In this document: piece after piece, positions 411 to 34,005 of the stretch
Position numbering within the stretch: the first letter of the stretch is position 1
Layout: each line of letters opens with the position of its first letter
DNA from: a virus
Virus record (IMG/VR): IMGVR_UViG_3300044608_001851
Coordinates: 1-35,394 of that record
DNA length: 35,394 bases
Direction: 5' to 3' (one strand)
Position numbers and translations under genes: made by a program
The notes under the pieces: generated by a model
What the model saw: only the letters and a program-made list of their open reading frames with translations
Told to the model about the DNA's origin: nothing
The model's database searches: none

Positions 411-757
411 GCGAGCAGGAAATCAACGAAGCCATCGCTGAAGCGTGTGGAAGGGAGAGGAACCCAGACGGTGGTTGGTACCCCGACAACGGATTACGAG
501 TCGGCACGCAGGCCATTCCAGATTATTGCGGCGACCTCAACGCTATGCACGAGGCGGAGAAGGTGCTGGATGAGACGCAGGCCGAGGATTATGAGGAACT
601 GCTTGGGGAGTATGGGTTTCATTCAACCGCCCGCCAACGCGCAGAGGCGTTTCTGATGACGCTGGGGAAGTGGGAACCAGTAGTAAAGGATTCATTGACA
701 ACTAACGGTGACCATTTGCATGGCGTCACGAAAATGCTCGGGAAGGAAACCAAATGA
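407..757 (+). CDS. Phage ABA-sandwich-type small protein
   Basis: This 116-aa protein shows the family pattern EINEAIAEACG (start), a GGWYPDNG insert, PDYCGDLNAMHEAE (middle) and ATARQRAEAF-like STARQRAEAFLMTLGKWEP (C-terminal). These are signatures of the small phage proteins described as phage ABA sandwich domain; their function is not known. A strong ribosome site, AAGGAGGTG, lies 8-14 bases before the ATG. It is very similar to the truncated gene at 35153 and more distantly to 34902, so it belongs to a small paralogous array. A short tail after GKWEP is not shared with its relatives. Confidence 0.75.
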   Translation: MSEQEINEAIAEACGRERNPDGGWYPDNGLRVGTQAIPDYCGDLNAMHEAEKVLDETQAEDYEELLGEYGFHSTARQRAEAFLMTLGKWEPVVKDSLTTNGDHLHGVTKMLGKETK

Positions 758-1017
758 GCAACCTTCAATCCATCGCCCCCAGCATCCTCGCCGGAATGCT
801 CGACCAGATCGCAATCGATACGCAGCCAATCTTCCGGCCCTACCTCATCGAAGCCGCACGACGATTGCAGCAGATGCCGGTGTACGGGGGAGCCGTCGCA
901 ATCCCCGACGACCTCCGCCGCAACGCCTCCGCCGAAGAACTTGTCGCGCTCCTCACGGCGCAAAACCACCAACTCCAAACAGCACTCCAGACACTCATCG
1001 ATGCTCACACCCCTTGA
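754..1017 (+). CDS. Hypothetical protein, 87 aa
   Basis: A small acidic, largely helical protein (SNLQSIAPSILAGMLDQIAI at the start, LVALLTAQNHQLQTALQTLI near the end), likely ending in a short amphipathic helix. No family recognised. It overlaps the preceding gene by ATGA and the following primase-helicase by 17 bases, so it is probably translated in the same early operon and may be an accessory of replication; that is inference from position only. Confidence 0.6.
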   Translation: MSNLQSIAPSILAGMLDQIAIDTQPIFRPYLIEAARRLQQMPVYGGAVAIPDDLRRNASAEELVALLTAQNHQLQTALQTLIDAHTP

Positions 1018-2890
1018 CCGCGCCCGCGCCTACGCCGCAAAAGTGCCAGGAGCAGTCTCCGGACAAAACGGACACTCCTCAACCTACGACCTCGCCCGCG
1101 TCCTAGTTCACGATTTCGCCCTCCCCGAACACGACGCGCTCCAGATCATCGCCGAGTGGAACGCCACGTGTTCGCCTCCCTGGTCTCAACGAGAACTCGA
1201 ACACAAAATCCGACAAGCCGCCTCGAAACCGCACACGACACCACGAGGCGCAAAACTTGACCTCGCGCGAAACACCGTTTCCCCGACCGGCCGCTTCATC
1301 GTTTCGCGATCCAGCGCGCCACCGGCCGACATTGCCTCCGGGGGCGCAAACCCCGCCGACGCAATCGCCCTTCTAAAAGCCGCCTTCGACCCCGAAGAAA
1401 TCGTCTGCATTTGCACCCAAGCCGCCGAAGCCGAGGACGGAAAACACCGACCAGGCTCCCACGGAACATTCAAAACCGCAGCGTGGTTCATCGAACAAAT
1501 CGAGAGCGGAACAAACCCCTTCACCGCCCCGAGCGCGGGGGGGCGCTGGATCCGAATCAACCCCTACAAAAGCGGAAGCACCACCGGCGCCGACCAAAAC
1601 GTCGCATCGTACCGCCACGTCCTGATCGAGTTCGACGACCTCCCCGAAGCCGACCAGCTCCACATCCTCCGCGCCTCAAACCTACCCCTGACGGCCATAA
1701 TCTCAAGCGGGGGGCGCTCCTACCATGGCTGGGTTCGCGTCGACGCACCCGACCGGCACACTTGGGAGAGCCGCCGAGATGCGATCTACGCCTACCTCGA
1801 AGACGCCAACCCTTGTCCCGCCAACAAAAACCCCGGCCGCTTTTCAAGACTGCCAGGGTGCGAGAGGGGCGCGCAGGTTCAACGCCTCATCTCCGGCAGG
1901 ATCGGGCCGGAAAGTTGGGAGGAGTTCGAGGTGTGGCTTCGCCGCCGAGACCTCCCCCAAGGCCTCTCGATCATGGACGTGGGCAACGTCCCAATCGCCC
2001 CCGACCCAACCTGCATTCTCGGAAACCGCTGGCTTTGCAAAGGCGGGAGCCTCGTCCTAGTTTCCTCGTCCGGAGTCGGAAAATCCTCCTTCGTGCTTCA
2101 GTTCGCGGTGGCCCTCTCGACCGCCATTCCATTTTTCGGCATCGCCCACCCCAACCGCACCCCACTCCGCGTCGGCATCATCCAAGCCGAAAACGACTGG
2201 GGCGACGTCCGCGAAGCCCTCGAAGGGGCGCTTCTCTGGCTAACCGCAGCCGGACGAAATGAGCCCGGCATGGTTCAGCGAATGGCCGCCAACCTCCGCT
2301 TTTTCCGCGAAAACACAAAAACGGGGGCGCCCTTCCTCGCAATCCTCCGCCAGCTCATCAAAGAACACCGCCTCGAAGTTGTCATCCTCGACCCCCTGAT
2401 GGCTTTTTTCGGGGACGACGTCGCAGACCAAAAAGCGATGTCGCTATTCCTCCGCAACACACTTCAGCCGATCCTTGAAGAGACGGGGGCGGTAGTGATC
2501 ATCGTTCACCACACCGCCAAGCCAAAACAAGAAGCCTCGCGCAACCACTCCGAAATCGCGTACCTGGGGGCGGGTTCAAGCGAGCTAACCAACTGGGCGC
2601 GCGAAATCGCCGTCCTGCAAAGGGAACCAAACCGCAAGGAAAAGCAGGGCGCTTTTTTACTCAGCTTATGTAAGCGGGGGCGCCGTGCAGGACTGCTAGA
2701 CGACAACGGAAACCCCGTCACCCAACTCCGCGTCGACCACGCCGACACCGGGATTTTTTGGCGATACGCAACCCCACTCCCGCCCGACCCCGAAGACACC
2801 GAAACCGAGAAACCAGCCGGGACTTTTACCCCATCGCGGAAGTTCAAAAGCCGAGCACCTAAACGTTTCAGAGAGCAGCACGGGGAATAA
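1001..2890 (+). CDS. Primase / RepA-type replicative helicase
   Basis: This 629-aa fusion combines three parts. Residues ~1-75 (PLDRARAYAAKVPGAVSGQNGH, PPWSQRELEHKIRQAA) match the helical domain common at the start of phage primase-helicases. Residues ~140-320 look like an archaeo-eukaryotic-type primase: acidic motif IEFDDL (~210), SSGGRSYHGWVRVD, and KNPGRFSRLPGC. Residues ~345-560 form a RecA/RepA-like ATPase (AAA_25 type) with Walker A SSSGVGKSS (~358), Walker B VVILDPLMAF (~459) and IVHHTAKP. It probably primes and unwinds phage DNA. The ATG at 1001 is chosen because family similarity begins directly after it; an upstream ATG at 941 would add 20 Arg/Ser/Lys-rich residues inside the previous gene. 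An odd basic tail (SRAPKRFREQHGE) may bind DNA. Confidence 0.85.
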   Translation: MLTPLDRARAYAAKVPGAVSGQNGHSSTYDLARVLVHDFALPEHDALQIIAEWNATCSPPWSQRELEHKIRQAASKPHTTPRGAKLDLARNTVSPTGRFIVSRSSAPPADIASGGANPADAIALLKAAFDPEEIVCICTQAAEAEDGKHRPGSHGTFKTAAWFIEQIESGTNPFTAPSAGGRWIRINPYKSGSTTGADQNVASYRHVLIEFDDLPEADQLHILRASNLPLTAIISSGGRSYHGWVRVDAPDRHTWESRRDAIYAYLEDANPCPANKNPGRFSRLPGCERGAQVQRLISGRIGPESWEEFEVWLRRRDLPQGLSIMDVGNVPIAPDPTCILGNRWLCKGGSLVLVSSSGVGKSSFVLQFAVALSTAIPFFGIAHPNRTPLRVGIIQAENDWGDVREALEGALLWLTAAGRNEPGMVQRMAANLRFFRENTKTGAPFLAILRQLIKEHRLEVVILDPLMAFFGDDVADQKAMSLFLRNTLQPILEETGAVVIIVHHTAKPKQEASRNHSEIAYLGAGSSELTNWAREIAVLQREPNRKEKQGAFLLSLCKRGRRAGLLDDNGNPVTQLRVDHADTGIFWRYATPLPPDPEDTETEKPAGTFTPSRKFKSRAPKRFREQHGE

Positions 2891-3221
2891 ATAACTAACT
2901 AAGATGAACCCCTCCCTTTTGATGCCGCGCTTCTCCCCACGCCCCACCCCACACCCGTTTCCCCTCTCCACCCCCCTTAGAGGGGTGGAAGAGGGAAACG
3001 GGGTGGGGATGGGGCGGTGGGAGAGCGGCAAGGCGGTAAAAACGAAAAGAAAAAGACAATCCGCACCCGTCACCCTCAGACACATTTTCGGCGCGACGAC
3101 GACCCCGCCGCGCGCGCCACGCGCAGCTTCCTATTCGGCATCGCAACCGCAAAACGCAACTCGCCCTCAAACCACACAAGCACACCGCCCCCACCCCCCC
3201 CTAGATAAGGAATCTCTTACC
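2891..3221 (+). other. Non-coding boundary between early and packaging genes
   Basis: About 330 bases separate the helicase from the packaging operon. The first half holds a very long hairpin (separate entry). The second half, 3018-3221, contains a purine-rich segment, then a GC-rich stretch with repeated CGCGC words and a C-run at 3190-3201. No convincing sigma-70 promoter is visible, and the frames open across it are compositional. Confidence 0.5.
2942..3014 (+). repeat. Long imperfect GC-rich hairpin
   Basis: The two arms, roughly 2942-2974 and 2981-3014, pair through about 30 base pairs with only a few single-base bulges. The inner stem is CCACCCC / GGGGTGG around the loop CCTTAGA, continuing out through CCCTCT/AGAGGG, CGTTTCCCC/GGGAAACG and CCCCACC/GGTGGGG blocks. 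There is no T-run after it, so it is not a textbook intrinsic terminator, but it lies right after the early operon and could stop or stabilise transcripts. It could also be a REP/MITE-like mobile repeat. The word TTAGAGGGG recurs at the terminator near 12154. Confidence 0.7.
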
Positions 3222-3296
3222 ATGCGCCAAAATAGTTTGCGGGGACGCACCCAACGAAGCAGCTGTGTGAATAAAATAAACCACGTTGACAGATGA
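3222..3296 (+). CDS. Putative 24-aa leader peptide
   Basis: A short frame encodes a basic peptide (MRQNSLRGRTQRSSCVNKI...), with AAGG about 11 bases upstream of its ATG. Its TGA overlaps the start codon of the terminase small subunit as ATGA, the same junction used by nearly all genes here. It could be a coupling leader that delivers ribosomes to the terminase gene, which has no obvious ribosome site of its own. The short length makes chance possible. Confidence 0.3.
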   Translation: MRQNSLRGRTQRSSCVNKINHVDR

Positions 3297-3994
3297 AACC
3301 CGAACCTCAAACACCGCCGCAACCGGCCCCAATCGCCTCAAGAGTGGCCGCGCAGAACGTGAAGATTCTTTTGGAGCGTCAGAAATCGGGGAAGCCCCTT
3401 TCGCGCTCAGAAATCGCACAGGTTGAGAAATACTTCGAAGAGCAAAACGGCGGAAAACCCAAAGAGGAGTTCGCTAAATCCCTCCAAGACCTCGCCGGAA
3501 TCTTCCACACCAACCGCGAAACCATCCGCCTTTGGCTCAAAGCCGGAGCACCTCGCCCGACCGGTTCCGGTTTCTACCCCATCAATGCCTGGCGCGACTG
3601 GATCCGCGAAAACGGCAAAGAAACCAATGAGGCGGAAACCCTCGACAAGGCCCGCCTCACCTGTCGACAGATTCAGCTCAAAATCGAAAAAATGGAAATC
3701 GAGGTCGCACAGGCACGAGGCGAACTGATGCACGTCGACACCGTACGCCAAAAGCTTTTCCAATCGTTCGACACCGTCCGCCGCCTCCAACTCCGCATGG
3801 GAACTTCTCTCGCCTCTCGCCTCGCCGGAATGGAACCCGCCGACATCGAGCGTGAAATCACCCAAGCCCTTGAAGAGAGTTACGACGCCATCCAGCGATG
3901 GGCGGACACGATGGCCCGCACCGAGGAACCCGACCAGACATCAACACCGACTAAACCAAAACGCACCCGCAAACCCAAAACCCCGAAAGCATGA
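3293..3994 (+). CDS. terS: Terminase small subunit (Nu1-like)
   Basis: A 233-aa protein with a helix-turn-helix in residues ~60-105 (KSLQDLAGIFHTNRETIRLW, then GFYPINAWRDWI), as in lambda Nu1/packaging small subunits that bind the packaging initiation site. A long helical region follows (KARLTCRQIQLKIEKMEIEV, then GELMHVDTVRQKLFQSFDTV), typical of the oligomerisation part. The tail is Thr/Lys/Pro-rich (PTKPKRTRKPKTPKA), presumably flexible and DNA-contacting. It is the first full-length gene of the late operon. Unusually, three genes separate it from the large subunit. Confidence 0.75.
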   Translation: MKPEPQTPPQPAPIASRVAAQNVKILLERQKSGKPLSRSEIAQVEKYFEEQNGGKPKEEFAKSLQDLAGIFHTNRETIRLWLKAGAPRPTGSGFYPINAWRDWIRENGKETNEAETLDKARLTCRQIQLKIEKMEIEVAQARGELMHVDTVRQKLFQSFDTVRRLQLRMGTSLASRLAGMEPADIEREITQALEESYDAIQRWADTMARTEEPDQTSTPTKPKRTRKPKTPKA

Positions 3995-4689
3995 AACCAA
4001 AAATCAAGGAACGCGACCCCCGCCAACTAACCCCAAACCCGCGCAATGCCAAGAGGCACGACGCCGACCAGATCGCCAAACTCAAAGCCTCGATTCTCCG
4101 GTACGGTTTCACCGCCCCAGTTCTCATCGACGCCGCCGGCGTCATCATCGCCGGACACGGACGAACCCGCGCAGCCATCGATGCCGGACTCGCAACGATT
4201 CCAACAATCCAACTCGACCTCACCGCGGACGACGCCCGCGCCTACGCACTCGCCGACAACAAACTCGCCGAGCTTGGCGGAGGTTGGGACTTGGAGATTC
4301 TCCGCGCCGAACTGGCCGACCTCTCAGCCCTGCCGGAGATCGAAACCGGATTCACCGACGCCGAGATTCAGACTCTTCTTCATGGGCCGAGCCGCAAACT
4401 CACAAAGGACGAAATCGAAGCCGCAGCCGACGACGACCCGCCGGAGGAAAAGCCGGACGACTTCGAACGCCAACTCGCAAAGGTAACCAACCCGACGCTT
4501 CCCCTTGTCGCCCAATACGGCGAAACCCAGCAAGCTTTCCTCATCGTTTGCGACAACTCAGTCGACGAGGCGTGGCTTCGTCATGTTCTCGGCCTAGAAG
4601 AGCCGCGCCAAAGCTACAAAGACCAGAATGTCCAATCCTCAAACGTCATCGCAGTCTCCGAACTCCGCGCCGCATGGAACTCTCGATAA
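3991..4689 (+). CDS. ParB-fold (ParB/Srx) domain protein
   Basis: A 232-aa protein whose first ~125 residues match the ParB-like nuclease/NTPase fold found at the front of phage ParB-methyltransferase fusions: RQLTPNPRNAKRHD, QIAKLKASILRYGFTAPVLI, the box GHGRTRAA (~50-57), and AYALADNKLAELGG. After an acidic linker (AAADDDPPEEKPDDFE) comes a small C-terminal domain (FLIVCDNSVDEAWLRHVLGL). No methyltransferase domain is attached. It overlaps the small terminase by ATGA and the next gene by 16 bases. A CTPase or nuclease role is possible; its placement beside a glycosyltransferase hints at DNA modification or packaging control, which is inference. Confidence 0.75.
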   Translation: MKPKIKERDPRQLTPNPRNAKRHDADQIAKLKASILRYGFTAPVLIDAAGVIIAGHGRTRAAIDAGLATIPTIQLDLTADDARAYALADNKLAELGGGWDLEILRAELADLSALPEIETGFTDAEIQTLLHGPSRKLTKDEIEAAADDDPPEEKPDDFERQLAKVTNPTLPLVAQYGETQQAFLIVCDNSVDEAWLRHVLGLEEPRQSYKDQNVQSSNVIAVSELRAAWNSR

Positions 4690-5411
4690 TCATTCCGAGC
4701 AGGGGGCGCCCCGCTTCCGTCCTTACCAAAATCACCGGAGCCAAACTTTTCGTTCCCGAATCCGAAGCGGACTCGTACCGACGCCACAACCCCGACACCG
4801 AAATCCTCACCCACCCGCCAACCCGCAACCTAGCGCACAAACGCCAAACCATCCTCGACCGATGGCCATCTGTCTTCATGGTCGACGACGACATCGCATT
4901 TGTTTCGCGCCTGTACTCAACCGGCAACAATCGCCACAACCACCTAAGCCCCGACCAAATCGCCGATCTGATCCAAGCAACCGCCACAAGCGCACGCCGC
5001 TCCGGATGCTATCTTTTCGGGTTCAATGCATTCCCCAACCCCCGACACTACCACACCCACAAACCCATCCGGTTTAACGCTTACATCAACGCGTCCGCTT
5101 TCGGCATCTTATCCGGTTCGTCACTCTATTTCACCGAGCGCACAACCGCCGCCGAAAGCCATTGGATAAACCTCCTCAATTGCTACTACCACCGGCGGAG
5201 CTTCCAAGACGCCCGTTTTTGTTTCGCGCAGGAACCAGGAAGCACTTTCTTTCGACCTGGTGGACAGACTGCAAACCGGACGCAAGACACCGAAAAAGCC
5301 GACACGCTTTTCCTTAAACGAACTTTCGGCGACGCCGTCCAAATCCGCAAAGGGTCACAGCACGCCGCGATCGCTCACCCCTACCAACGAACCATCAAAT
5401 TCCCGTTCTGA
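4674..5411 (+). CDS. Glycosyltransferase, TAGT-like
   Basis: A 245-aa protein beginning with the GT-A-like pattern MELSIIIPSRGRPASVLTK, then LFVPESEADSYRR (~25-37), a RNLAHKRQTILDRW segment and the acidic metal/sugar-binding motif FMVDDDIAF (~67-75). Together they resemble the TET-associated glycosyltransferases described by Iyer, Aravind and colleagues in phages with hypermodified DNA. The start at 4674 is chosen because the family similarity begins at that Met. It sits between a ParB-fold gene and a GIY-YIG gene inside the terminase operon. DNA bases are a plausible acceptor, but no TET oxygenase or hydroxymethylase is in the window; capsid or cell-surface acceptors remain possible. Confidence 0.65.
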   Translation: MELSIIIPSRGRPASVLTKITGAKLFVPESEADSYRRHNPDTEILTHPPTRNLAHKRQTILDRWPSVFMVDDDIAFVSRLYSTGNNRHNHLSPDQIADLIQATATSARRSGCYLFGFNAFPNPRHYHTHKPIRFNAYINASAFGILSGSSLYFTERTTAAESHWINLLNCYYHRRSFQDARFCFAQEPGSTFFRPGGQTANRTQDTEKADTLFLKRTFGDAVQIRKGSQHAAIAHPYQRTIKFPF

Positions 5412-5734
5412 TGTTCCACGTTTACCACCTCGTCGACCCCAACGACCGCGCCGTCCGCTACGTTGGGAAAAGCAGCAAACCCAAAGCCCGCCTCGCGCAA
5501 CACCTCGCCGACGCAGCCGCCGCCGATAACACCGATAAAAAACGGTGGATTCGTCGCCTCGTCGCCGCCGGACAGAAGCCCGTCCTCGTCATCGCCGGAA
5601 GTTTCGCGACCGAACCATTGGCCCGCGCTTTCGAGTCCGATGAATGCCACCGCCACATTCACTCCATCACCAACATTCACGACCCTGCCAAAAGAGCCGC
5701 CGATCTCCACAAAGCAACCCGCGCCGCCAAATGA
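5411..5734 (+). CDS. GIY-YIG endonuclease domain protein
   Basis: A 107-aa stand-alone domain. HVYHLVD at residues 3-9 and RYVGK at 16-20 fit the GIY...YIG strands; R27 in KARLAQH and an acidic residue near E75/E78 (LARAFESDECHRHI) sit where the catalytic Arg and Glu are expected. These nucleases nick or cut DNA. Start and previous stop share one base (TGATG) and the stop overlaps the large terminase start by ATGA. It could be a homing-type insertion, a packaging-associated nuclease like those near other terminases, or part of the ParB/glycosyltransferase cassette. Confidence 0.75.
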   Translation: MFHVYHLVDPNDRAVRYVGKSSKPKARLAQHLADAAAADNTDKKRWIRRLVAAGQKPVLVIAGSFATEPLARAFESDECHRHIHSITNIHDPAKRAADLHKATRAAK

Positions 5735-7491
5735 GCATTTTCTACGAGACCCTCGCCGAGATTTTCTCCGCCAAAAAGCAAACAACGCCGTGGAAATGGG
5801 CCGAGCAGCATTTGACCCTCGACAACACAACAACGCTCCCGGGACGTTTCCAGATCCGAAACGCGCCTTTCTGCGCCGAGCCGATGGAAGCATTTGCCGA
5901 CAACCGCATCGACGAACTGACCATTATGTGTTCAGCCCAATCCGCCAAAAGCCAAATGCTGATCACTTGCCTATGTTGGGCAATCGCCGAAGACCCCGGC
6001 CCCGCTCTCTGGGTGATGGCCAACCAAGACGACGCCGAGGAGTTTCACCGCGTACGACTAAAGCCGCAAATCCTCTCAGCCGAACCCATCCGGCGTTTGA
6101 TGATTCAGCACCGTTCAGCCGACAAGGCCTCCGGCATGGATTTCTCAACGATGCACCTCTCGATTCGCGGCGCACACTCACCCGCCAAACTCCAGTCCCT
6201 TCCGGTTCGCTGGTTGATTCTCGATGAGGTACGCAACTACCCACCCCAAGCCCTCGACACCGTCCGCAAACGCGTTCGCGCTCAATGGAACCACCGTATC
6301 GTCCAAATCTCCACGCCCGACCTCGAAAACGACGAGATGCACAGAAGCTTCCTCCAAGGTGACCAACGCCATTTCTACTGGGCGTGCCTTCAATGCGGAG
6401 AGCACTTTTGCCCGACATGGGACACCGTCAAATGGGACACCGACGAACGAACGACCCGCCCAAATGGCGATTTCATTTTCGACCGACTCGCGGAGACAAT
6501 CCGCATCGAATGCCCCCATTGCCATTTCGCGCACTTCGACAACGCCCACACCCGCAAACGCCTTTTGCAAAACTTCCGGTGGATACCGCATAACGAAACC
6601 GCGCCCGCCGCTCACCGTTCGTACCATTGGAACGCCTTCATTCCCATCTGGATTCAATGGCGCAAAATCGTCGAAGAGTTTCTGGAAGCAAAAAAGGTTT
6701 TGAACCTAACAGGCTCAACCGGAAAACTCCGGATCTGGAAGGGGGAATCCCTTGGCCTTCCTTGGACGCCGGATTTGCAGGAGGAAAACACGTTGGTTGT
6801 CGAGGCCGGAGCCGCAGCCTACCCACTCCGCACCGTTGGCGACGGAATCCGCATTCTCACCGTCGACGTTCAACAAGATCACCTCTGGTTTCTGGTTCGC
6901 GAGTGGCAACCGGACGGAGCGTCGCGCCTTGTCGACTGGGGGCGCGTTCACGGTTTCGCCGACCTCCCGCCAATCCAAGCGCAATACGGAATCCCCAATG
7001 CCAACGTCCTGGTCGACTCCGGATTCGAAACCTCCGCCGTGTACGCCGCCATCGCCCGACACGAAGACCGAGAGGGAAACCGATGGAAGCCGACCAAAGG
7101 AACACCCAACACCGACGGATGGACAATCGACGGAGTGAAGAGGCCGTTTTTCTTCTCGTACACCGAAATCGGTAAAGGCCACAAGCCCATCCGGCTCCTC
7201 CTGTTTTCCGTCGCACTAATGAAAGACCACCTCTGCGCTATGATTCGCGGTGGCCCCTATCAACCCCGTTGGGAATACTCGACCGAAGCCGGAAAGGATT
7301 ACCTCTCGCAACTGACCGCCGAGCGTCGCCGTGAAAAAGTAGACAGCTATGGCCGGTCAACGTATTTTTGGGAACGGATACGCCGCAACAACCACGTTTT
7401 CGACCTTGAGGTTCTCCAACTTCTGGCCGCGACTGGCCACCGCGGAATCCGATTGAACGGAGAACTCGCGACCGATGGCAAACGAAATTGA
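5731..7491 (+). CDS. terL: Terminase large subunit (GpA family)
   Basis: The packaging motor, 586 aa. Visible parts: lambda gpA-type N-terminus (FYETLAEIFSAKKQTTPWKW), deviant Walker A SAQSAKSQ (~68-75), Walker B WLILDEVR (~161-168), QISTPDLENDEMHRSF coupling region, a zinc-finger pair CLQC (~220) and CPHC (~261), and the C-terminal RNase H-like nuclease with VDVQQDHLW (~378) and VDSGFETS (~427). The ATG at 5731 overlaps the previous stop. It translocates DNA into the prohead through the portal and makes the cuts. GpA-type terminases usually make cohesive ends, so a cos site is expected but was not identified. Confidence 0.93.
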   Translation: MSIFYETLAEIFSAKKQTTPWKWAEQHLTLDNTTTLPGRFQIRNAPFCAEPMEAFADNRIDELTIMCSAQSAKSQMLITCLCWAIAEDPGPALWVMANQDDAEEFHRVRLKPQILSAEPIRRLMIQHRSADKASGMDFSTMHLSIRGAHSPAKLQSLPVRWLILDEVRNYPPQALDTVRKRVRAQWNHRIVQISTPDLENDEMHRSFLQGDQRHFYWACLQCGEHFCPTWDTVKWDTDERTTRPNGDFIFDRLAETIRIECPHCHFAHFDNAHTRKRLLQNFRWIPHNETAPAAHRSYHWNAFIPIWIQWRKIVEEFLEAKKVLNLTGSTGKLRIWKGESLGLPWTPDLQEENTLVVEAGAAAYPLRTVGDGIRILTVDVQQDHLWFLVREWQPDGASRLVDWGRVHGFADLPPIQAQYGIPNANVLVDSGFETSAVYAAIARHEDREGNRWKPTKGTPNTDGWTIDGVKRPFFFSYTEIGKGHKPIRLLLFSVALMKDHLCAMIRGGPYQPRWEYSTEAGKDYLSQLTAERRREKVDSYGRSTYFWERIRRNNHVFDLEVLQLLAATGHRGIRLNGELATDGKRN

Positions 7492-7717
7492 TTACCACGC
7501 AATCTTTCGAGCGATGAGCACGGCGGAACTCTCCGCCGCCATCGCTCGACTAAACCAAGAGTTTGCCGACCCCTACACCGCAATCTCCGCCGCCGGAACC
7601 TCCTCGCAACGCGACCGCGCTCAAATCGCCACCGAACTCTCAGCCGCTTGCCAAGTTCACGCCGAGCGCACCGCCTCCGGAACCCCTCGCACCCGCGCCC
7701 GCGCTTACTTCGCATGA
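7475..7717 (+). CDS. gpW-like head-tail connector (candidate)
   Basis: An 80-aa protein between the large terminase and the portal, exactly where lambda has gpW, the small adaptor that prepares the portal for tail joining. It begins with an amphipathic segment (AIFRAMSTAELSAAIARLNQ) and has an Ala-rich second helix. It overlaps the terminase by 17 bases and the portal by ATGA. Sequence similarity to gpW by eye is limited; the call rests mostly on size, position and helix pattern. Confidence 0.5.
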   Translation: MANEIDYHAIFRAMSTAELSAAIARLNQEFADPYTAISAAGTSSQRDRAQIATELSAACQVHAERTASGTPRTRARAYFA

Positions 7718-9420
7718 ACCTCTTATCCCGTCTCAAACGCACCGCCTTCTCTTGGATCGGAGCCACGCCGACCGCCGAGCGCAAACTAACGCCCTCGCAA
7801 AACTCCAACCACCCAGAGACATCAACAAACCAACGCTCCCGAGTTCAACTCATCTGGGAAGCCCGAGACCTCCAAAGGAACCACCCACTCGTCGCCGGAA
7901 TCCTCAAGCGTCTCAGCCTGTACACCGTCGGAACCATCCGGTTTCAAGCCCGCACCTCCGACCCCGCTTTCAACGCCGCAGCCGAAGCCTATTTCCAAAA
8001 GTGGAGCCGAAACGCCGACATCGCCGGACGGTTCGACTTCGTCCACCTCGTCCAACTGGCATTCATTTCGTTCCTCCGCGACGGCGACGCCGTCATCGTT
8101 CACAGCATCACCACCGACGGACTAAAGGTTCAGTTAGTCGAGGCCGACCGCGTTGGGAACCCGTACGCCTCTATCGTCGCCGAAAACGAAATCGGCGGGA
8201 TTTGCTTCGACGACCTCGGACGGCCCGAAACCTTCCGCATCTATCGGCGCACGATGGGAGCCGCGTATACAGACCCACAAGAGATTCCCGCCGCACGTTG
8301 TCTGCATCTATTCGACCCCGAACGGCATGACTCCTACCGTGGAATTTCAGCCCTAGCACCCGTCATCGCCACCTGTCGCGACATCGTCGACATTCTGGAA
8401 GGGGAAAAAGCCGCCGTGAAATGGGCAGCAGGACAATCCGGCCTTATCAAAACCCAATCCGGCAACGGGCAGGGATGGGACGAAACCACCGCAACCGGCG
8501 AACGCATCGAACGAATCAAGCCAGGCACCATCCACTATTTGAAACCCGGTGAAGAGGTGCAGAGTTTCCGCAACGAACGCCCCTCCGTGACATTCACCGG
8601 TTTTCTCGAAACCCTCCAACGCCACATCTCCGACGCTCTCGGACTGCCCTATGGGTTTTTCGTCGACTCGTCAAAGCTAGGAGGCGTCACCGCAAGGCTC
8701 GATTCCCAGCAAGCCGCCCGTGTTTGTCGCCGCTACCAAGACCTCCTCACCCGTCAGATTCTCGACCCGATCGCGCAAGCCGTCGTCGCCCTCGGAATCG
8801 CCGAGGGACAGATTCCGGAAAACCCAAACTGGAACGCCCACCGCTGGCAGTTTCCGCCGTGGCCGTCCGCCGACATCGGACGCGAAACAAAAGCCGCACT
8901 TGAAGAAATCGCAGCCGGTGGCGGGACTTGGTCGGAATACTACGCAGAGAAGGGAGAAGACTGGGAAGAAGCATTCAGCCAATCCGCAATCGAGACCGCC
9001 CGCCGGAAGGCGATTTTCTCGGAAGCAGGAGTGGCCGACCCCGTCCTCGCCGCCGCCGCCATGAAACCCGGAGCCGGAGCACCTCCGCCCGCCGCCTTCC
9101 AAGCAAAGCCGGAATCGTTCGAACCTCCCAAAGGCGTCCAAGAGGCCGCGGCCAGAGCACTCCGGAACCGAGAGCAGCAACCTCCAAGCAAACGCGGCAT
9201 GACTCCGGTTGGAATCGCCCGTGCTCGCGACCTCGCCAACGGTCGCCGCGTTTCCGTTGAGACGCTAAAACGGATGAAGGCCTATTTCGACCGGCACGAA
9301 GTCGACAAGAAAGGCAGCACTTGGGACGCGTACGGCAAAGGCCGACAAGCTTGGGATGGATGGGGCGGGGACGCCGGACGCACTTGGGCAAACCGCGTTC
9401 TCGCCAGCCTCGAAAAATGA
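7714..9420 (+). CDS. Portal protein (lambda gpB family) with C-terminal extension
   Basis: A 568-aa protein of the phage_portal_2 type: basic N-terminus, VQLIWEARDLQRNHPLVAGI, GDAVIVHSI, RVGNPYASIV, RCLHLFDPERHDSYRGISAL, YGFFVDSSKLGGVTARLDSQ. The dodecameric portal is the DNA gateway of the prohead and the docking site for terminase. After residue ~485 comes a separate segment (RGMTPVGIARARDLANGRRV, LKRMKAYFDRHEVDKKGSTW, WGGDAGRTWANRVL) resembling a small domain often seen in other phage head/protease proteins. The ATG at 7714 overlaps the preceding stop. Confidence 0.9.
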   Translation: MNLLSRLKRTAFSWIGATPTAERKLTPSQNSNHPETSTNQRSRVQLIWEARDLQRNHPLVAGILKRLSLYTVGTIRFQARTSDPAFNAAAEAYFQKWSRNADIAGRFDFVHLVQLAFISFLRDGDAVIVHSITTDGLKVQLVEADRVGNPYASIVAENEIGGICFDDLGRPETFRIYRRTMGAAYTDPQEIPAARCLHLFDPERHDSYRGISALAPVIATCRDIVDILEGEKAAVKWAAGQSGLIKTQSGNGQGWDETTATGERIERIKPGTIHYLKPGEEVQSFRNERPSVTFTGFLETLQRHISDALGLPYGFFVDSSKLGGVTARLDSQQAARVCRRYQDLLTRQILDPIAQAVVALGIAEGQIPENPNWNAHRWQFPPWPSADIGRETKAALEEIAAGGGTWSEYYAEKGEDWEEAFSQSAIETARRKAIFSEAGVADPVLAAAAMKPGAGAPPPAAFQAKPESFEPPKGVQEAAARALRNREQQPPSKRGMTPVGIARARDLANGRRVSVETLKRMKAYFDRHEVDKKGSTWDAYGKGRQAWDGWGGDAGRTWANRVLASLEK

Positions 9421-9755
9421 GCTTTTCCCTCCGCCAACTTCCGGACGGCCAATGGGTAAAACTCGCCCGCCGCCTCACGTTCTCGCTCGATTTCGACCGC
9501 ACCTTCACCGCAGCCCCCCAACTGTGGCGGGACTTTATCGCCAACGCCCACGCCGCCGGACACCGCGTCGTCTTGATCACGCGCCGACCGGACACCAAAG
9601 CCGACCGCGACGAGGTGACCAAACGCACCGCAACCGCCAATCTCGACCGCCTCATTTTCGCCGGACAAACTCAAAAAGAGGACGCGGCCCGCGCAGCCGG
9701 TGAAACCATCGACATCTGGATTGACGACCACCCCGTCGGAATCCCCGCCGCTTAA
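9417..9755 (+). CDS. Small HAD-family phosphatase
   Basis: At 112 aa this is near the minimum for a HAD hydrolase. Motif I is LDFDRTF with D25 and D27 as nucleophile and acid/base; motif II is VVLITRR; a Lys in the TQKEDAARA region may serve as motif III; motif IV is IWIDDHP. Phage relatives act on nucleotides or polynucleotide 3' ends, but the substrate here is unknown. The first ~18 residues (SLRQLPDGQWVKLARR) are extra and match the start of the next gene. It sits between portal and protease, joined to the portal by ATGA, an unusual place for an enzyme. Confidence 0.7.
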   Translation: MSFSLRQLPDGQWVKLARRLTFSLDFDRTFTAAPQLWRDFIANAHAAGHRVVLITRRPDTKADRDEVTKRTATANLDRLIFAGQTQKEDAARAAGETIDIWIDDHPVGIPAA

Positions 9756-9759
9756 TCCC

Positions 9760-9921
9760 ATGCCCTACGCCGTCAAACAACTTCCGAGCGGTGAGTGGGT
9801 GAAAGTGAAACGCACCGCCGCCGACACCATCGTTTCTCGTCACAAAACCAAAGCGGACGCAATCGCCGCCATCCGCGCCTACTACGCCAACAAACGCAGC
9901 CTCGAAAACCGCTCAAAATGA
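9760..9921 (+). CDS. Small DUF2188-like protein, 53 aa
   Basis: A basic peptide with the pattern AVKQLPSGEWVKVKRTAA, then SRHKTKADAIAAIRAYY, reminiscent of the compact beta-beta-alpha DUF2188-type proteins (W-VK...S-H-TKAEAI-AA). Function unknown. Its first strand pair resembles the extra N-terminus of the HAD gene immediately upstream, suggesting duplication of one small module. Start chosen at 9760, four bases after the HAD stop; stop overlaps the protease start by ATGA. Confidence 0.6.
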   Translation: MPYAVKQLPSGEWVKVKRTAADTIVSRHKTKADAIAAIRAYYANKRSLENRSK

Positions 9922-10796
9922 ACACGACATTCTCAGCCCTCGCACCCGAAACCGTCGGCGAAAAAATCATCCACGGAGTTTCGGTGATCACGACCGGCCC
10001 CGCAAAAGGCCACGGACTAATGGTCGACGCCGAAACCCTCGCCCAGGTTGTCCAATGTTCCAAGGCCCGCGCCGTAAAAGTCAAGATGCTCCACAACTCC
10101 GACCTCTCACAAGTGATCGGGACTCTCAAAAACTTCCGCATCGACGGAGAAAAGGTGCTGGCCGACCTCCACCTTCTGGCCTCCGCCCCCGCCCGTGATT
10201 TTGTTCTCGAAATCGCCCGCACGATGCCGACCGCGTTCGGCCTTTCCATCTCGTTCGAAGGTGCGCCAGACGGCAACCTCGCCCGATGCTCACGTTTGCT
10301 TTCCGTCGACCTCGTCGACGAACCCGCCGCAAACCCAGACGGGTTGTTCGAAGAAAAACCAATAGACGCCCCTGCCGCAGATGTTACAACGAACGCAGAA
10401 CCTATGACCGAAAACCCCGAAAAAATGGAAGCCCCAACGCCAGAAGACCGCATCGCGGCTCTTGAAGCGGCCATCGGGGAAATCAAATCGATGCTCGCCT
10501 CACTAGTGGCCGAGGAATCCTCTGAAACCGAAATGGCAGCAAAACCGGAACCCGCAGCCGAGCCGGAACAGAAGGCCGGAGAAGCCTTCGAAGCAATCGA
10601 GTCGAAAATCCTCGGAACGGTCGAAACGCGGTTCGAAGCCCTCGCGACCCTCATCAAATCGATGGGCGCACCCGTCGCACATGGCGCAGCCGGTGACGCC
10701 ACCAAACCTTCCTCGCCGATCAACTTTGCAGAACTCCGCAAATCCGACGCCGCGATGCGGTCACACCTCATCGAGCGCGGAATCCTCAAACACTAA
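9918..10796 (+). CDS. Prohead protease-scaffold fusion
   Basis: A 292-aa protein with an N-terminal prohead serine protease domain: conserved early strand KIIHGVSVITTG, candidate catalytic His in KMLHNSDLSQVIG (~59), candidate Ser in FGLSISFEG (~110), and SVDLVDEPAANPDGLF closing the domain (~135-150). From ~160 it becomes Ala/Glu/Pro-rich with a coiled-coil (RIAALEAAIGEIKSMLASLV) and a helical tail (NFAELRKSDAAMRSHLI) typical of an internal scaffold that binds capsid subunits. It would guide shell assembly and then degrade itself. It precedes decoration and capsid genes, as in lambda C/Nu3. Confidence 0.82.
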   Translation: MNTTFSALAPETVGEKIIHGVSVITTGPAKGHGLMVDAETLAQVVQCSKARAVKVKMLHNSDLSQVIGTLKNFRIDGEKVLADLHLLASAPARDFVLEIARTMPTAFGLSISFEGAPDGNLARCSRLLSVDLVDEPAANPDGLFEEKPIDAPAADVTTNAEPMTENPEKMEAPTPEDRIAALEAAIGEIKSMLASLVAEESSETEMAAKPEPAAEPEQKAGEAFEAIESKILGTVETRFEALATLIKSMGAPVAHGAAGDATKPSSPINFAELRKSDAAMRSHLIERGILKH

Positions 10797-10811
10797 ACCC
10801 AAAATAAAAAA

Positions 10812-11183
10812 ATGGCTCAAAACGACTCTGGCTTCAAGGCGTTCACAGTTGGCGCGACGGCGATTCCCGCCGGTTCACGCGTTCAACTTTCGAGCGGCGT
10901 ATTGGTGGCAGCAGCCGCCCCTAACGGTTCAGCAATCGGCGTCGCCCTCGCGGACGGCGCAGTCGGCGGAACGCTCACCATCAAACTCAACAACGCCGCA
11001 GGGACGCACGATATGCTGGCCTCCGGCGCAATCACCGCAGGAGCACCCGTGTTTCCAGCGGCCTCCGGCAAAGTCGCATCCGCGACGACCGGCGGAAACC
11101 TCGCAATCGGAATCGCACTCGAAGACACGACCGGCGACGGCCAGAGAATCGAAGTCGCGCTCCAACCGCAAGCCCACTCCTAA
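10812..11183 (+). CDS. Head decoration protein (DUF2190-like)
   Basis: A 123-aa beta-rich protein: AFTVGATAIPAGSRVQLSSG, repeated A-IGVAL / AIGIALEDT blocks, GAPVFPAASGKVA, ending in RIEVALQPQ. This is the pattern of small capsid-decorating proteins (DUF2190 or gpD position) that cement the expanded shell. It lies directly before the major capsid gene. The leader is CCCAAAATAAAAAA before the ATG, with no Shine-Dalgarno sequence despite expected high expression. Confidence 0.75.
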   Translation: MAQNDSGFKAFTVGATAIPAGSRVQLSSGVLVAAAAPNGSAIGVALADGAVGGTLTIKLNNAAGTHDMLASGAITAGAPVFPAASGKVASATTGGNLAIGIALEDTTGDGQRIEVALQPQAHS

Positions 11184-11197
11184 CCACTCCTTAAACC

Positions 11198-12142
11198 ATG
11201 TACGCAAACTCAACGGCAATCCTCCGCGCAGACATTCAAGAGGCGGTCATTCAAGCGGGTGGCGCAGATGCTGGCCTAATCGGTGGCCTCGTCATGCCCC
11301 CTCTAGAAGTCTCCGGCAAATCCGGCCAGTACCTCAAAATCGAAACCGCAGCCGGAAACCTAATGAAGGTTGATGGCGACGCGGCCAAGCGGGCGCAGGA
11401 TGGGAGCTATTCCCGCATCAACCGCAGTTGGACGGCAGACACCTACCTCACGGAAGACCGTGGCTTAGAGGAGTTGGTCGACGACTCCCAACAGGCAGAC
11501 CTCGCCCGCTTCCTCGATGTTGAAGCAACCATCGCAAAGCTTTTGCTCCGCAACATCAAATTGGCGCACGAAAGCCGCGTGGCTTCCGCGATTTTTAACA
11601 CCGGAACATTCAACGCGACCGCAGCCGGAACCGCATGGACGGATGCCGGAGCCGATCCGGTTTCGGACATCCTTAACGCCATCGCCCGACTCCTCAAAAA
11701 AGGAGTTTCGGCAAACACGTTGGTGATCAACCAAGACGTTTACAACTTGCTCCGGAAAAACGCGAAGGTTCAATCGTTCATCTTCGGCTCCGTCGGAACC
11801 GGCGACCTCCGCAACGTGGACTCCACGCTCATCGGCGCAAACCTTGGAATCGAAAAGGTTCTGGTTGCGTCCGCAGCCTACGACGCATCCAAGCGCGGAG
11901 CCGCATCGCCCTCCGGCACGTTCGTCTGGGCGTCCAACCGCGCATGGGTTGGTAACACCGCATCCGGCAACTTCCAAGCAGGGGGCGCGGGGCGCACGTT
12001 GACGTGGAAGGACGATTCACCGGATCTGTTCACCGTCGAAACCTACCGCGACGAATCCCGCCGCTCCGGCGTTGTTCGCGTCCGCCAGTCCACCGCCGAG
12101 AAAATCATCGACTCCACCGCCGGAGAAGTGATCACTTGGTAA
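11198..12142 (+). CDS. Major capsid protein
   Basis: A 314-aa protein in the lambda gpE position after the decoration gene. It shows an N-terminal helix (ILRADIQEAVIQAGG), the SGQYLKIETAAGNL strand, AKRAQDGSYSRINRSW, a long central helix (EATIAKLLLRNIKLAHESRV), TLVINQDVYNLLRKNAKVQS and a C-terminal beta region (TLTWKDDSPDLFTVETYRDE), consistent with an HK97-fold shell protein of the type containing VINQDVY-like backbone helices. No cleavable delta domain is obvious. An intrinsic terminator follows, so the gene may accumulate separate mRNA. Confidence 0.85.
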   Translation: MYANSTAILRADIQEAVIQAGGADAGLIGGLVMPPLEVSGKSGQYLKIETAAGNLMKVDGDAAKRAQDGSYSRINRSWTADTYLTEDRGLEELVDDSQQADLARFLDVEATIAKLLLRNIKLAHESRVASAIFNTGTFNATAAGTAWTDAGADPVSDILNAIARLLKKGVSANTLVINQDVYNLLRKNAKVQSFIFGSVGTGDLRNVDSTLIGANLGIEKVLVASAAYDASKRGAASPSGTFVWASNRAWVGNTASGNFQAGGAGRTLTWKDDSPDLFTVETYRDESRRSGVVRVRQSTAEKIIDSTAGEVITW

Positions 12143-26645: not shown

Positions 26646-28242
26646 CCACTTAAACAAATGGCAGATTTACCAGTCACCCAAGCAGTCGACACCTTCATGG
26701 GTTCGGCCAATCAAACCGAAATGCGCTCCAACCTAGCGTTGGGGGATTCGGCGACAAAAAACACCGGAACCACATCCGGCACCGTGGCCGCTGGAGACGA
26801 CTCGCGCATCGTCGGAGCCGTCCAAACCTCTCGCACGATCAGCGCAGGCACAGGTCTCTCTGGAGGTGGCACTCTCGCGTCAGACCGCACGCTTTCGGTT
26901 TCGTTCGGCAACACGGCAGGGACGGCGTGCGAGGGAAACGACTCTCGCCTAAGCAACTCGCGCCCCCCTAACGGCAACGCTTCCGGCGACCTAAACGGAA
27001 CCTACCCATCGCCACTCGTCTCCGGCCTCTACAACCGCCCATTGGCAAGCGCAGCCCCAACCAACGGACAGGTTCTAGGCTGGAATGGATCGCAATGGAC
27101 GCCCATGACGGTCTCCGGCTCCGGCGCATCGGAAGAGTTTCCGGTCTTAGCCGTATTGTTCATGGGCCCAGTTTCCGGCCAAAACTACTCAATCCCCACA
27201 GGCTACAAATGGGCTGACCTTTACCTCTGCAGCGGAGGGCAAGGTGGCAATGGCGGAGACGTCCGCACCGTTTACGACGCCCAATCCTCATTTGCGGCAT
27301 CGGGAGGGAATGGCGGAGCCACCGGAGTTCTCCGGATGCTCAAGGAGATCTGGGTCAAAGGTTCAGTCCTCACAATGGATTTGGGAGCGGGAGGAGTGGG
27401 CGGAGCCGGTGGAGTGATTCAAGGTTACTCCAACGGGAGCCCTTCCTACAGCGCAGGACAACTTGGGGGGAATGGTGGAGATTCCTTGGTCTATTTTTCA
27501 ACCCCTCCGGAAGGCAGTCCGTCTTATTCCAATCAGCGTTTGATGAATGCTCCTTACGGAGGATCACGCCATTCACAACAATCATGGGCGGATGGGTACG
27601 GAGGAGGAGTGAACGCCCAAGGAGCAACGCCAACGCTGACGGCGTGGAACTCTCTGTTCCAAGTGATGATTCACCCAGGTGCTGGCGGAAGCGGAACCCC
27701 GTCGAGCGGGATCGGCCCGCAGTTCATCGACGGAGCCAAAATTGCCGACGGAAACGAGGTGATGATTTCAAACACGGGAGCCGTGTTGGCTTCGTACGAG
27801 GGGAACACAAACAATGGCATCGACGCCCTACAGGTTCCTCTCTTCACAAACTCCATGTCGTTCTCCGGTATGTTTTTCGGAGGAGCAGGAGGTGCAGGAG
27901 TCTATGCCGACGCTCCAAACAACTCCTACAGCCGAGGGGGGAACGGTTCCGACGCGCAGCCCGGATGCGGTGGCGGTGGAGGAGGCGGTTGCTTCGTTGG
28001 GAACAATCTGACCGATGCAGACCCGAATGGAGTCAAAGGAGGGGACGGAGGAGACGGTGGCGTCGGATTCCTACTTCTGATGCTCCGCAAATAGCCATGC
28101 AACAGGTCTCCAATAACCTCCTCGCTGACGCAACCACAGTCGGCAAGCAGCTTTTGAGCGCAGCCGACGCGACCGCCGCAAAGGCCGCGCTCAATCTCGC
28201 AGCGGTGGCCACCACCGGAAGCTACAACGATCTCGCGGACAA
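25939..28242 (+). repeat. Exact 40-base repeat shared by two fibre genes
   Basis: Bases 25939-25978 and 28203-28242 are identical. They encode the [14 protein letters not shown] anchor portion in two different fibre genes, with lower similarity on both sides. Exact identity amid diverged flanks suggests recent recombination or gene conversion. Confidence 0.85.
26658..28094 (+). CDS. Tail fibre/adhesin, Gly-rich, 478 aa
   Basis: An N-terminal segment with QAVDTFMGSANQTEMRSNLA, then TSGTVAAGDDSRIVGAVQTS and GNASGDLNGTYPSPLVSGLY, fibre motifs seen in many phages, followed from ~200 by a Gly-rich domain (GGQGGNGGDV, GGAGGVIQGYSNGSPS, GGAGGAGVYADAPNNSYSRG) ending in VGFLLLMLRK. This hydrophobic end resembles those of the other two Gly-rich adhesins. 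Three bases follow before the next gene. Confidence 0.75.
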   Translation: MADLPVTQAVDTFMGSANQTEMRSNLALGDSATKNTGTTSGTVAAGDDSRIVGAVQTSRTISAGTGLSGGGTLASDRTLSVSFGNTAGTACEGNDSRLSNSRPPNGNASGDLNGTYPSPLVSGLYNRPLASAAPTNGQVLGWNGSQWTPMTVSGSGASEEFPVLAVLFMGPVSGQNYSIPTGYKWADLYLCSGGQGGNGGDVRTVYDAQSSFAASGGNGGATGVLRMLKEIWVKGSVLTMDLGAGGVGGAGGVIQGYSNGSPSYSAGQLGGNGGDSLVYFSTPPEGSPSYSNQRLMNAPYGGSRHSQQSWADGYGGGVNAQGATPTLTAWNSLFQVMIHPGAGGSGTPSSGIGPQFIDGAKIADGNEVMISNTGAVLASYEGNTNNGIDALQVPLFTNSMSFSGMFFGGAGGAGVYADAPNNSYSRGGNGSDAQPGCGGGGGGGCFVGNNLTDADPNGVKGGDGGDGGVGFLLLMLRK

Positions 28243-29107
28243 ACCAACCGGAGGAGGGACGCCGCCACAAATCAATCTCTACACCCTCACAACTCACCCG
28301 TCCGGCACGGCAACTTGGACAAAGCCAACAGGAGCAAAATCCGTAAACGTGCAGATGTTCGGAGGAGGGGGAGGAGGAGGGAGTGGACGCAAAGACGCAT
28401 CCTCCAACGTCGTGCATTGTGGAGGAGGCGGAGGAGGTGGAGGCAGTTACCTCAACGTAACGCTACCCGCTGCCGCTCTAGACTCAACAGTCGCCATCAC
28501 GATCGGAGCCGGTGGCCCTGGTGGCAACGGACAAACCGCAACCGCTAATGGAGTCGACGGAACCAACGGTTTCAACTCGGCCTTCGGAACCTTGGTCGCC
28601 ACAGGAGGAGGAAGAGGAATAGGCGGTTCCATCACGCTCGGAAGCGGAGGAGCCGCCGCACTTAACTCAAATGCAGGGGCGAGCGCAGCGGTCAACGGTG
28701 GTGCCGGAGCCATCGGCAACCCGAACGCGCAAAATGTCGCGTGGAGCTATGGTGGCGCAGGAGGAGGGGCAGGGGGGGGGATTTCGACAGGGAACGCACC
28801 TTTTTTCGGAGGTAACGGAGGTCGCTCGAATGCACTCAACGCGCTAGGAGGGGGAGCCGGAAACACCACAACCGCAATCAACGGGGGCAACGGAACCGCC
28901 AACTCCAACGCCGAAATCGGTTTTCTCGCGTCCGGATCGGGAGGAGGAGGAGGCGGAGCGCAACTAACCGCGGACGGAGGAATAGGAGGAGCAGGAGGTT
29001 TCCCAGCCGCTGGAGGAGGAGGAGGAGGAGCAACCCAAACAGGTTCGCAATCCGGCGCAGGAGGAAACGGAGCCGCCGGAATGGTAATGGTCACAACCTA
29101 TTTTTAA
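28097..29107 (+). CDS. Tail adhesin, Gly-rich, 336 aa
   Basis: Anchor module MQQVSNNLLADATTVGKQLL then [20 protein letters not shown], near-copy of the one in the gene at 25827, followed by INLYTLTTHPSGTATWTKPT and NVQMFGGGGGGGSG, the usual entry into a Gly-rich tip, then ~230 Gly-rich residues ending VMVTTYF. The coding sequence contains a run of nine Gs at 28772-28780. The ATG at 28097 matches the paralogue's start; a longer frame upstream lies in the preceding gene. Confidence 0.75.
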   Translation: MQQVSNNLLADATTVGKQLLSAADATAAKAALNLAAVATTGSYNDLADKPTGGGTPPQINLYTLTTHPSGTATWTKPTGAKSVNVQMFGGGGGGGSGRKDASSNVVHCGGGGGGGGSYLNVTLPAAALDSTVAITIGAGGPGGNGQTATANGVDGTNGFNSAFGTLVATGGGRGIGGSITLGSGGAAALNSNAGASAAVNGGAGAIGNPNAQNVAWSYGGAGGGAGGGISTGNAPFFGGNGGRSNALNALGGGAGNTTTAINGGNGTANSNAEIGFLASGSGGGGGGAQLTADGGIGGAGGFPAAGGGGGGATQTGSQSGAGGNGAAGMVMVTTYF

Positions 29108-32965: not shown

Positions 32966-33469
32966 ATGTTCAAACCAGATCGCAACGCCCCAGCCAACGG
33001 AGGCTACCTCAAACAAGCCGGAATCTTCGCCGCCGTCATTCGTTTCCCCGAAGAAATCGAATGTATGCAAAGCGGGGAAACCAAGATTCGACTCCGCTTC
33101 GAGACCGAGCACGGAACCGCAACGGACGATTTCATCAACATGGAAAAGCTCTGGTGGAAGCTGAACGTACTTCTAGCAGCCGCCGACCCCACCGGAACCC
33201 TGATTCCAATCTCCGACGGAGCCGACGTCGACTTCTCCCACGAGAAAAACTTCATCGCGTTCGTTAAGCACTTCGACGGGAAAGCCGTGCGTTTCGCGCA
33301 CTTTGAAGAGAGCTACACCAAAAAGGACGGGACGACCGCGACATCCTGGAGGGTTCGACCGCTCGACCCCCGCAAGCACCACGCCGAGCAACTCACGAAA
33401 AAAGCACTCGCGCAGGTGACAGACCCAGCGCCGGCACAACCGGAAGAACCCGACGAAATCCCATTCTAA
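32966..33469 (+). CDS. SSB-like protein with DEIPF tail
   Basis: A 167-aa beta-rich protein (IFAAVIRFPEEIECMQSGET, FETEHGTATDDFIN, FIAFVKHFDGKAVRFAHFEE) ending in QPEEPDEIPF. An acidic linker finished by DxIPF is the protein-interaction tip of bacterial single-stranded DNA-binding proteins, recruiting host repair factors. Immediately downstream of the RecT-like gene, so the two probably act together on recombination intermediates. An OB fold is inferred, not shown. Confidence 0.65.
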   Translation: MFKPDRNAPANGGYLKQAGIFAAVIRFPEEIECMQSGETKIRLRFETEHGTATDDFINMEKLWWKLNVLLAAADPTGTLIPISDGADVDFSHEKNFIAFVKHFDGKAVRFAHFEESYTKKDGTTATSWRVRPLDPRKHHAEQLTKKALAQVTDPAPAQPEEPDEIPF

Positions 33470-33472
33470 CCT

Positions 33473-33691
33473 ATGCTCACCGACTCAGACCGCACGGAAA
33501 TCATCGCCATGATCCGAGACGAGATTGTCGACGCCATGCCCAAAAGCCCCTTCGGGGGCGGGGGCGCCGACCCATACCCGCCAAGCAGGACCGACGACCG
33601 GTCCGCCCTCACCTTCGAAATCCGCTTTTTGAGGCGCGAACTCGAAGCCCTCACCAAACAACTCCACAGCATCCAGACATCCGCAGAATGA
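33473..33691 (+). CDS. Hypothetical protein, 72 aa
   Basis: Short helical protein: N-terminal SDRTEIIAMIRDEIVDAM, a Gly/Pro linker PFGGGGADPYPPSR, then a coiled-coil-like EIRFLRRELEALTKQLHSIQ. Possibly an oligomeric accessory. The stop overlaps the next start by ATGA. Confidence 0.5.
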   Translation: MLTDSDRTEIIAMIRDEIVDAMPKSPFGGGGADPYPPSRTDDRSALTFEIRFLRRELEALTKQLHSIQTSAE

Positions 33692-34005
33692 ACCCAGACC
33701 CGACACTAAACGAAGCGCAAGAGATTCTCCGCCAATGGGCCGACGCCCGCGGAATCCTCGCGCACTCCACCCCGCAAGCCCAGGCTCTCAAACTCGTCTC
33801 CGAAGTCGGAGAACTGGCCGACGACCTCGTCAAAGGAAACGACCCAACCGACGCTCTCGGTGACGTTTTCGTTTGCCTCACCCTAACGGCGGAATTGCTA
33901 GGGATTCAACTCAACGACGCCGTCCTCACCGCATGGCATCAGATCAAAGACCGGCAGGGGCGCATGGTCGCCGGAGGCGCATTCGTAAAGGAGGAAACAA
34001 AATGA
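33688..34005 (+). CDS. MazG-like NTP pyrophosphohydrolase
   Basis: A 105-aa all-helical protein: QALKLVSEVGELADDLVKGN with the ExxE metal-binding pair (E39, E42), and DALGDVFVCLTLTAELLGIQ with the second acidic pair (D55, D59), then AWHQIKDRQGRMVAGGAFVK. MazG-type enzymes remove non-canonical NTPs or (p)ppGpp. In a phage with possibly modified DNA it may adjust nucleotide pools. The usual Glu before LGD is Ala here, with Asp one position earlier. Confidence 0.82.
   Translation: MNPDPTLNEAQEILRQWADARGILAHSTPQAQALKLVSEVGELADDLVKGNDPTDALGDVFVCLTLTAELLGIQLNDAVLTAWHQIKDRQGRMVAGGAFVKEETK

Follow-up and report, generated by a model that had tools for sequence, protein, structure and literature searches.

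A conserved ParB-type and TAGT glycosyltransferase gene pair near phage terminase genes probably adds sugars to phage DNA

Results

Three genes between the terminase subunits

What might a ParB-type protein, a TAGT glycosyltransferase and a small GIY-YIG protein do together when their genes lie between the two terminase genes of a phage? The stretch of DNA that raises this question (hereafter, the window) is a viral record from IMG/VR, 35,394 bases long, in which the genes for TerS, the ParB_N protein, TAGT, GIY-YIG and GpA-type TerL are followed by a short gene where gpW normally lies and then by a portal of lambda type (Table 1). A preliminary description of this DNA had reported the three genes between TerS and TerL, with ATGA or short overlaps at every junction. 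We confirmed both the coordinates and the overlaps: the TerS/ParB and GIY-YIG/TerL junctions are ATGA overlaps, the ParB and TAGT genes overlap by 16 nt, and the TAGT and GIY-YIG genes by 1 nt (TGATG). The ParB, TAGT and GIY-YIG family calls of that description were also borne out, as all three inserted genes scored above the Pfam cut-offs, and its motifs were all present (GHGRTRAA at ParB residues 55-62, SRGRP and DDD at TAGT residues 9-13 and 71-73, and HVY/RYVG in the GIY-YIG protein).

Table 1 Features of the terminase-flanked locus in the window.
Feature	Coordinates	Strand	Evidence
Terminase small subunit (TerS, flank)	3293..3994	+	phrog_57 2.1e-15
ParB_N protein with TAGT-partner C-terminal domain, 232 aa	3991..4689	+	PF02195 8.4e-8, 32.6 bits (cut-off 26.3); Spo0J/ParB/Noc CTPase structures by profile and by fold
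C-terminal domain (CTD) of ParB protein, part tied to TAGT	4480..4686	+	51/51 CTD-only loci with TAGT directly downstream
TAGT glycosyltransferase, GT-A fold, DDD motif, 245 aa	4674..5411	+	PF20691 5.6e-9, 36.7 bits (cut-off 27.5); phrog_842 (beta-glucosyl-HMC-alpha-glucosyltransferase) 1.6e-9 over residues 3-235; AF2 pLDDT 92.4; fold matches
Small GIY-YIG protein, predicted nuclease, 107 aa	5411..5734	+	PF01541 5.3e-5, 23.9 bits (cut-off 22.6); alignment of six homologues; near relatives confined to module
Terminase large subunit (TerL), GpA type (flank)	5731..7491	+	PF05876 9.5e-43; PF20454 1.6e-31

A related record of 34,870 bases (L005), in which the segment equivalent to window positions 33100-34993 runs straight into 699-11402, suggests that the window is an almost complete genome of ~35 kb in circularly permuted form. 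Elsewhere in the window, two long ORFs that resemble tail fibres and contain glycine-rich domains (26658-28094 and 27584-29107) overlap by ~510 nt in different frames. The portal of another record (L002:9042-10741) is, unlike that of the window, split over two overlapping frames, reflecting a frameshift or an assembly error.

The ParB, TAGT and GIY-YIG genes are under purifying selection, with dN/dS of 0.10-0.26 against L006 and L007 (at dS ~0.7-1.06). These values, together with the same gene order in divergent phages, argue that the arrangement is not due to chance. The TAGT gene has been locally exchanged or diversified relative to L005, since most of the stretch that holds TAGT and its margins (window 4643-5540) is 78-94% identical, against 99-100% in the flanks. 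Such divergence would fit a gene under host-defence pressure. A second, milder divergent patch relative to L005 was seen within TerL (window 6353-6712, 92-94%).

Protein families and folds

Among the TAGT homologues, 52/54 matched PF20691 and the DDD motif was invariant in all 54; the 245-aa protein thus falls within the glycosyltransferases, as had been proposed. Its start at 4674 is backed by agreeing aligned N-termini across homologues, and a 519-aa ORF (3852-5411) was rejected as a mere upstream extension of the TAGT frame. In fold searches, the predicted model matched the beta-glucosyl-HMC-alpha-glucosyltransferase of Klebsiella phage PKO111 (TM 0.76) as well as other viral TAGTs and GT-A enzymes, the top PDB fold matches including SunS, RmlT and WrtF. 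The TAGT profile found no match among PDB sequences, where relatives were reached by fold search only, and close tblastn searches of phage records with the TAGTs of the window and of L009 also returned no match.

The ParB protein combines a ParB_N fold and its nucleotide-binding box (by profile and fold) with a different C-terminal part. G55, R58 and N90 are kept in at least 90% of 51 homologues, and the resemblance to the Spo0J, ParB and Noc CTPases covers the N-terminal part only. Matches to solved ParB proteins end near profile position 130, and the helix-turn-helix and C-terminal dimer domain of partition ParB were not found; the remainder is a previously undescribed domain of ~65 aa (CTD). 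The CTD overlaps phrog_17622, a family without assigned function, and the predicted ParB structure is less confident over it. The window ParB is similar to the N-terminus of the PADLOC type II methyltransferase PDLC03229 (7e-23), and Pfam searches found no methyltransferase domain in the ParB, TAGT or GIY-YIG proteins of the window. In seven loci (L066, L072, L074-L076, L080, L081), the gene directly upstream of ParB-CTD encodes an additional, double-ParB protein whose C-terminal part differs.

In the GIY-YIG protein, residues Y5, Y17, R27, E75 and N88 were invariant in an alignment of six homologues, and a PDB sequence search found no close solved relative. We rejected a reading of these genes as a catalogued defence system: in PADLOC, TAGT had no match and GIY-YIG only a weak one (PD-T4-3, 2.4e-4).

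ParB-CTD and TAGT form an obligate pair

Profile scans of IMG/VR and one of GTDB genomes yielded 82 TAGT loci besides the window. Six-frame searches placed ParB-CTD directly upstream of TAGT in 82/83 loci, and the sole locus without it (L082) is a truncated contig beginning inside TAGT. For the reverse test, the query was an alignment of the CTD alone, with ParB_N left out, built from a closer set of sequences (an alignment of 17 diverse rows was too loose for scanning). This search recovered 51 loci, every one with TAGT directly downstream, and ~20 of them lay on contigs that the TAGT query had missed. The two genes overlap or abut in 48/54 non-redundant pairs. Their linkage spans different terminase families, TAGTs down to ~31% identity, and actinobacterial and streptococcal phages; in remote relatives (Javan291, L242-L249), the CTD is hard to detect and ParB_N is still upstream of TAGT. 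The core unit is therefore an obligate ParB-CTD/TAGT pair. Two TAGT genes per locus, tandem or nearby, were observed in L063, L065, L077 and L056, which suggests stepwise addition of two sugars.

The preliminary description would have been refuted if the three genes did not co-occur in related phages; they do co-occur, in related phages and unrelated ones alike. It needs correcting in two respects: GIY-YIG is specific to a single clade, and only some loci have the genes between TerS and TerL, the pair elsewhere usually lying just upstream of TerS/TerL. At least 44 of the 56 non-redundant loci had terminase genes no more than 6 kb away, and several of the remainder are contig ends. In Streptococcus phage Javan25, the same pre-terminase slot is occupied by ParB-type and C5 DNA methyltransferase genes.

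Accessory partners

Across the 56 non-redundant loci, the partners of the pair were a stand-alone MgsA_C protein (33), GIY-YIG (15) and N6_Mtase (14), along with the sugar-tailoring proteins WbqC (9), PIG-L (8) and a second glycosyltransferase, GT2 (7). GIY-YIG and MgsA_C never shared a locus. The former is confined to one TAGT clade (SH-aLRT 99), with two apparent absences there, one of them a contig end, and it replaces the stand-alone MgsA/RarA C-terminal protein of most other loci in what is essentially one event. The associated Fisher p of 3e-8 overstates independence for this reason. Seen in reverse, TAGT was present in 68/78 viral loci found with MgsA_C; one such stand-alone MgsA/RarA C-terminal domain protein, without an AAA+ domain, is at L080:5498-6118. 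Near relatives of the GIY-YIG protein were seen only next to TAGT (L091 being a truncated contig), and generic GIY-YIG relatives were discarded as evidence for the module because they lacked TAGT. A ParB-N6_N4 methyltransferase gene directly follows GIY-YIG, within the cassette, in L006, L007 and L009.

Module-bearing isolates and hosts

The module was found in lytic Microbacterium phages and in a prophage of Sphaerotilus natans. In Microbacterium phage Quhwah, of cluster EC, gp87 is ParB-CTD (CTD profile, E 3e-9), followed by gp88, TAGT (gp89, 9e-22), UDP-glucose dehydrogenase (gp90) and gp91 (L263:6521-7141), an annotated AAA-ATPase that the module's MgsA_C profile recovers at 2e-36. The genome is circularly permuted; its record begins with TerS and has these genes at its right end. 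Altogether, 56 Microbacterium phage records matched. The paper describing cluster EC notes the glycosyltransferase and dehydrogenase genes and ascribes no role in DNA modification to them (PMC7302621). The prophage of S. natans ATCC 13338 (L083) carries the GIY-YIG form, and no further prophage with the module was found among 399 genomes surveyed from the Sphaerotilus order.

Enzymes that could provide an acceptor base

The thymidylate-synthase family, which includes dCMP hydroxymethylase, had no match in 32 ParB-CTD module records, several of which are fragments; the control was positive in 9 genomes. Tet_JBP was likewise matched in 0/32 of these records, a weak null as its control was silent too. 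A C5 methyltransferase was present in 3/32 and missing from 29/32, and the annotation of Quhwah lists no acceptor-making enzyme (hydroxymethylase, TET or C5 methyltransferase). Taken together, these results indicate that no known acceptor base is apparently made. In a myovirus record, the neighbour of TAGT is a pyrimidine HMase.

Discussion

We consider it fairly likely that the module carries out phage DNA glycosylation directed by ParB-CTD, with a nuclease specific to one clade. TAGT would move a sugar from a sugar nucleotide onto phage DNA, and the translationally coupled ParB-CTD may load or aim it there, having kept the NTP-binding ParB fold and carrying a dedicated C-terminal domain instead of a helix-turn-helix. 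Such a role can be likened to the one presumably played by ParB_N domains in fusions with phage DNA methyltransferases. In the clade of the window, GIY-YIG could then cut DNA without the mark (host or unmodified), with a logic like that of T4 endonuclease II. Glycosylation would precede packaging. The analysis shows the protein families and folds, the conserved active-site residues, the gene linkage in both directions, purifying selection and the lack of thymidylate-synthase matches; the roles themselves, DNA as the substrate included, are our inference. The packaging-linked modification or discrimination module of the preliminary description fares accordingly: a so far undescribed DNA-modification module is the best-supported reading, whereas its link to packaging is a matter of position, in a slot also used by other phage DNA methyltransferase genes. 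That description missed the ParB-CTD/TAGT core, the interchange of GIY-YIG and MgsA_C, and the lack of a known acceptor-making enzyme.

DNA glycosylation is favoured by the TAGT membership, DDD motif and PKO111 fold match of an enzyme whose family includes the T2/T6 enzymes, which act on phage DNA, as well as by the two-way linkage and gene overlap of ParB-CTD and TAGT. It is also favoured by the DNA-related partners (ParB-N6_N4 methyltransferase, N6_Mtase, the MgsA/RarA C-terminal protein and the likeness to PDLC03229), by the sugar-tailoring partners (PIG-L, WbqC, GT2 and the UDP-glucose dehydrogenase of Quhwah), and by the methyltransferases of Javan25 in the same pre-terminase slot. It is weakened by the apparent lack of a known acceptor base, and because TAGT, in its characterised reaction, attaches the second sugar to a base that is already glucosylated. 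If TAGT glycosylated not DNA but a protein of the host or virion, RNA or a surface glycan, ParB-CTD would be its NTP-dependent regulator. This alternative would sit well with the missing DNA acceptor pathway in the 32 records and with the many acceptors that GT-A enzymes serve, SunS, RmlT and WrtF being among the top fold matches; PIG-L and WbqC are otherwise familiar from surface-glycan loci. We nevertheless regard this as somewhat unlikely, given that the closest characterised TAGT relatives act on phage DNA and that ParB_N, the DNA methyltransferases, MgsA_C and GIY-YIG each suggest a DNA target.

It is very improbable that the genes share no function and are linked merely by common phage ancestry and a cargo site by the terminase. 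The wider gene order is indeed common to many loci, and the split between GIY-YIG and MgsA_C, following one TAGT clade, amounts to about one event; but the linkage crosses terminase families, distant TAGTs and phages of different hosts, the reverse search with the CTD holds throughout, and the paired genes overlap. The GIY-YIG gene might instead encode a selfish homing-type endonuclease that sits in the cassette with no connection to ParB and TAGT, as many phage GIY-YIG proteins are homing enzymes and this one is missing from other TAGT clades and has no close solved relative. Its near relatives occur only beside TAGT, and throughout one clade it holds the same position and is under purifying selection (dN/dS of 0.21-0.26 in comparisons with L006 and L007), so we find the homing explanation unlikely.

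Within the DNA-glycosylation reading, we tentatively raise the possibility that ParB-CTD and TAGT act without a hydroxylated pyrimidine from the nucleotide pool or from TET. The acceptor might then be a canonical base (or its amine or the backbone), or be made by ParB-CTD itself. If true, glycosylating DNA that has no hydroxymethylated base would amount to a new chemistry of DNA modification. It would be widespread among small siphophages and would likely serve against restriction and CRISPR. The modification is directly searchable, because lytic isolates (Microbacterium cluster EC) and a cultured lysogen (S. natans ATCC 13338) carry the module.

Comparison with known systems

The nearest characterised relatives are the T-even TAGTs (PF20691), which belong to the same family with the same GT-A fold and, in T2/T6, act on phage DNA (PMC13216743). 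In an alignment, the window TAGT shares P8, S9, R12, Y35, R57, D71-D73, G196, G197 and R202 with that of Salmonella phage STP4-a. However, T-even genes adjoin dCMP hydroxymethylase and a beta-GT, whereas the window TAGT adjoins ParB-CTD and no hydroxymethylase was found. The TET-associated hypermodification clusters also include a TAGT-type glycosyltransferase and may differ in Tet_JBP, for which the 32 records gave no match while the control was silent; in the literature searched, whose coverage excluded a 2013 computational survey of DNA modification systems, we found no link of ParB to a TET-associated glycosyltransferase. T4 endonuclease II (DenA) is a GIY-YIG protein of a phage that protects its own DNA by base modification, and the window phage may, by analogy, shield its DNA in a comparable way, although the two GIY-YIG proteins showed no sequence match in the PDB search.

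Solitary phage TAGTs likewise occur without alpha-GT or beta-GT: a 2026 survey counted 288 of 753 phages (over a third) with TAGT but no known first glucosyltransferase, and reported their function as undefined (PMC13216743). The present TAGT loci differ in being tied to ParB-CTD and a small partner set, so that a large group of function-undefined TAGTs now has a common ParB-type partner, accompanied by a small repertoire of genes for sugar tailoring or related to DNA. The phage ParB-DNA methyltransferase fusions (phrog_498, PDLC03229) have a homologous ParB_N in the same pre-terminase slot. In the window, by contrast, the ParB protein stands alone, carries its own CTD and is paired with a glycosyltransferase, and the two probably glycosylate phage DNA in a manner not yet described.
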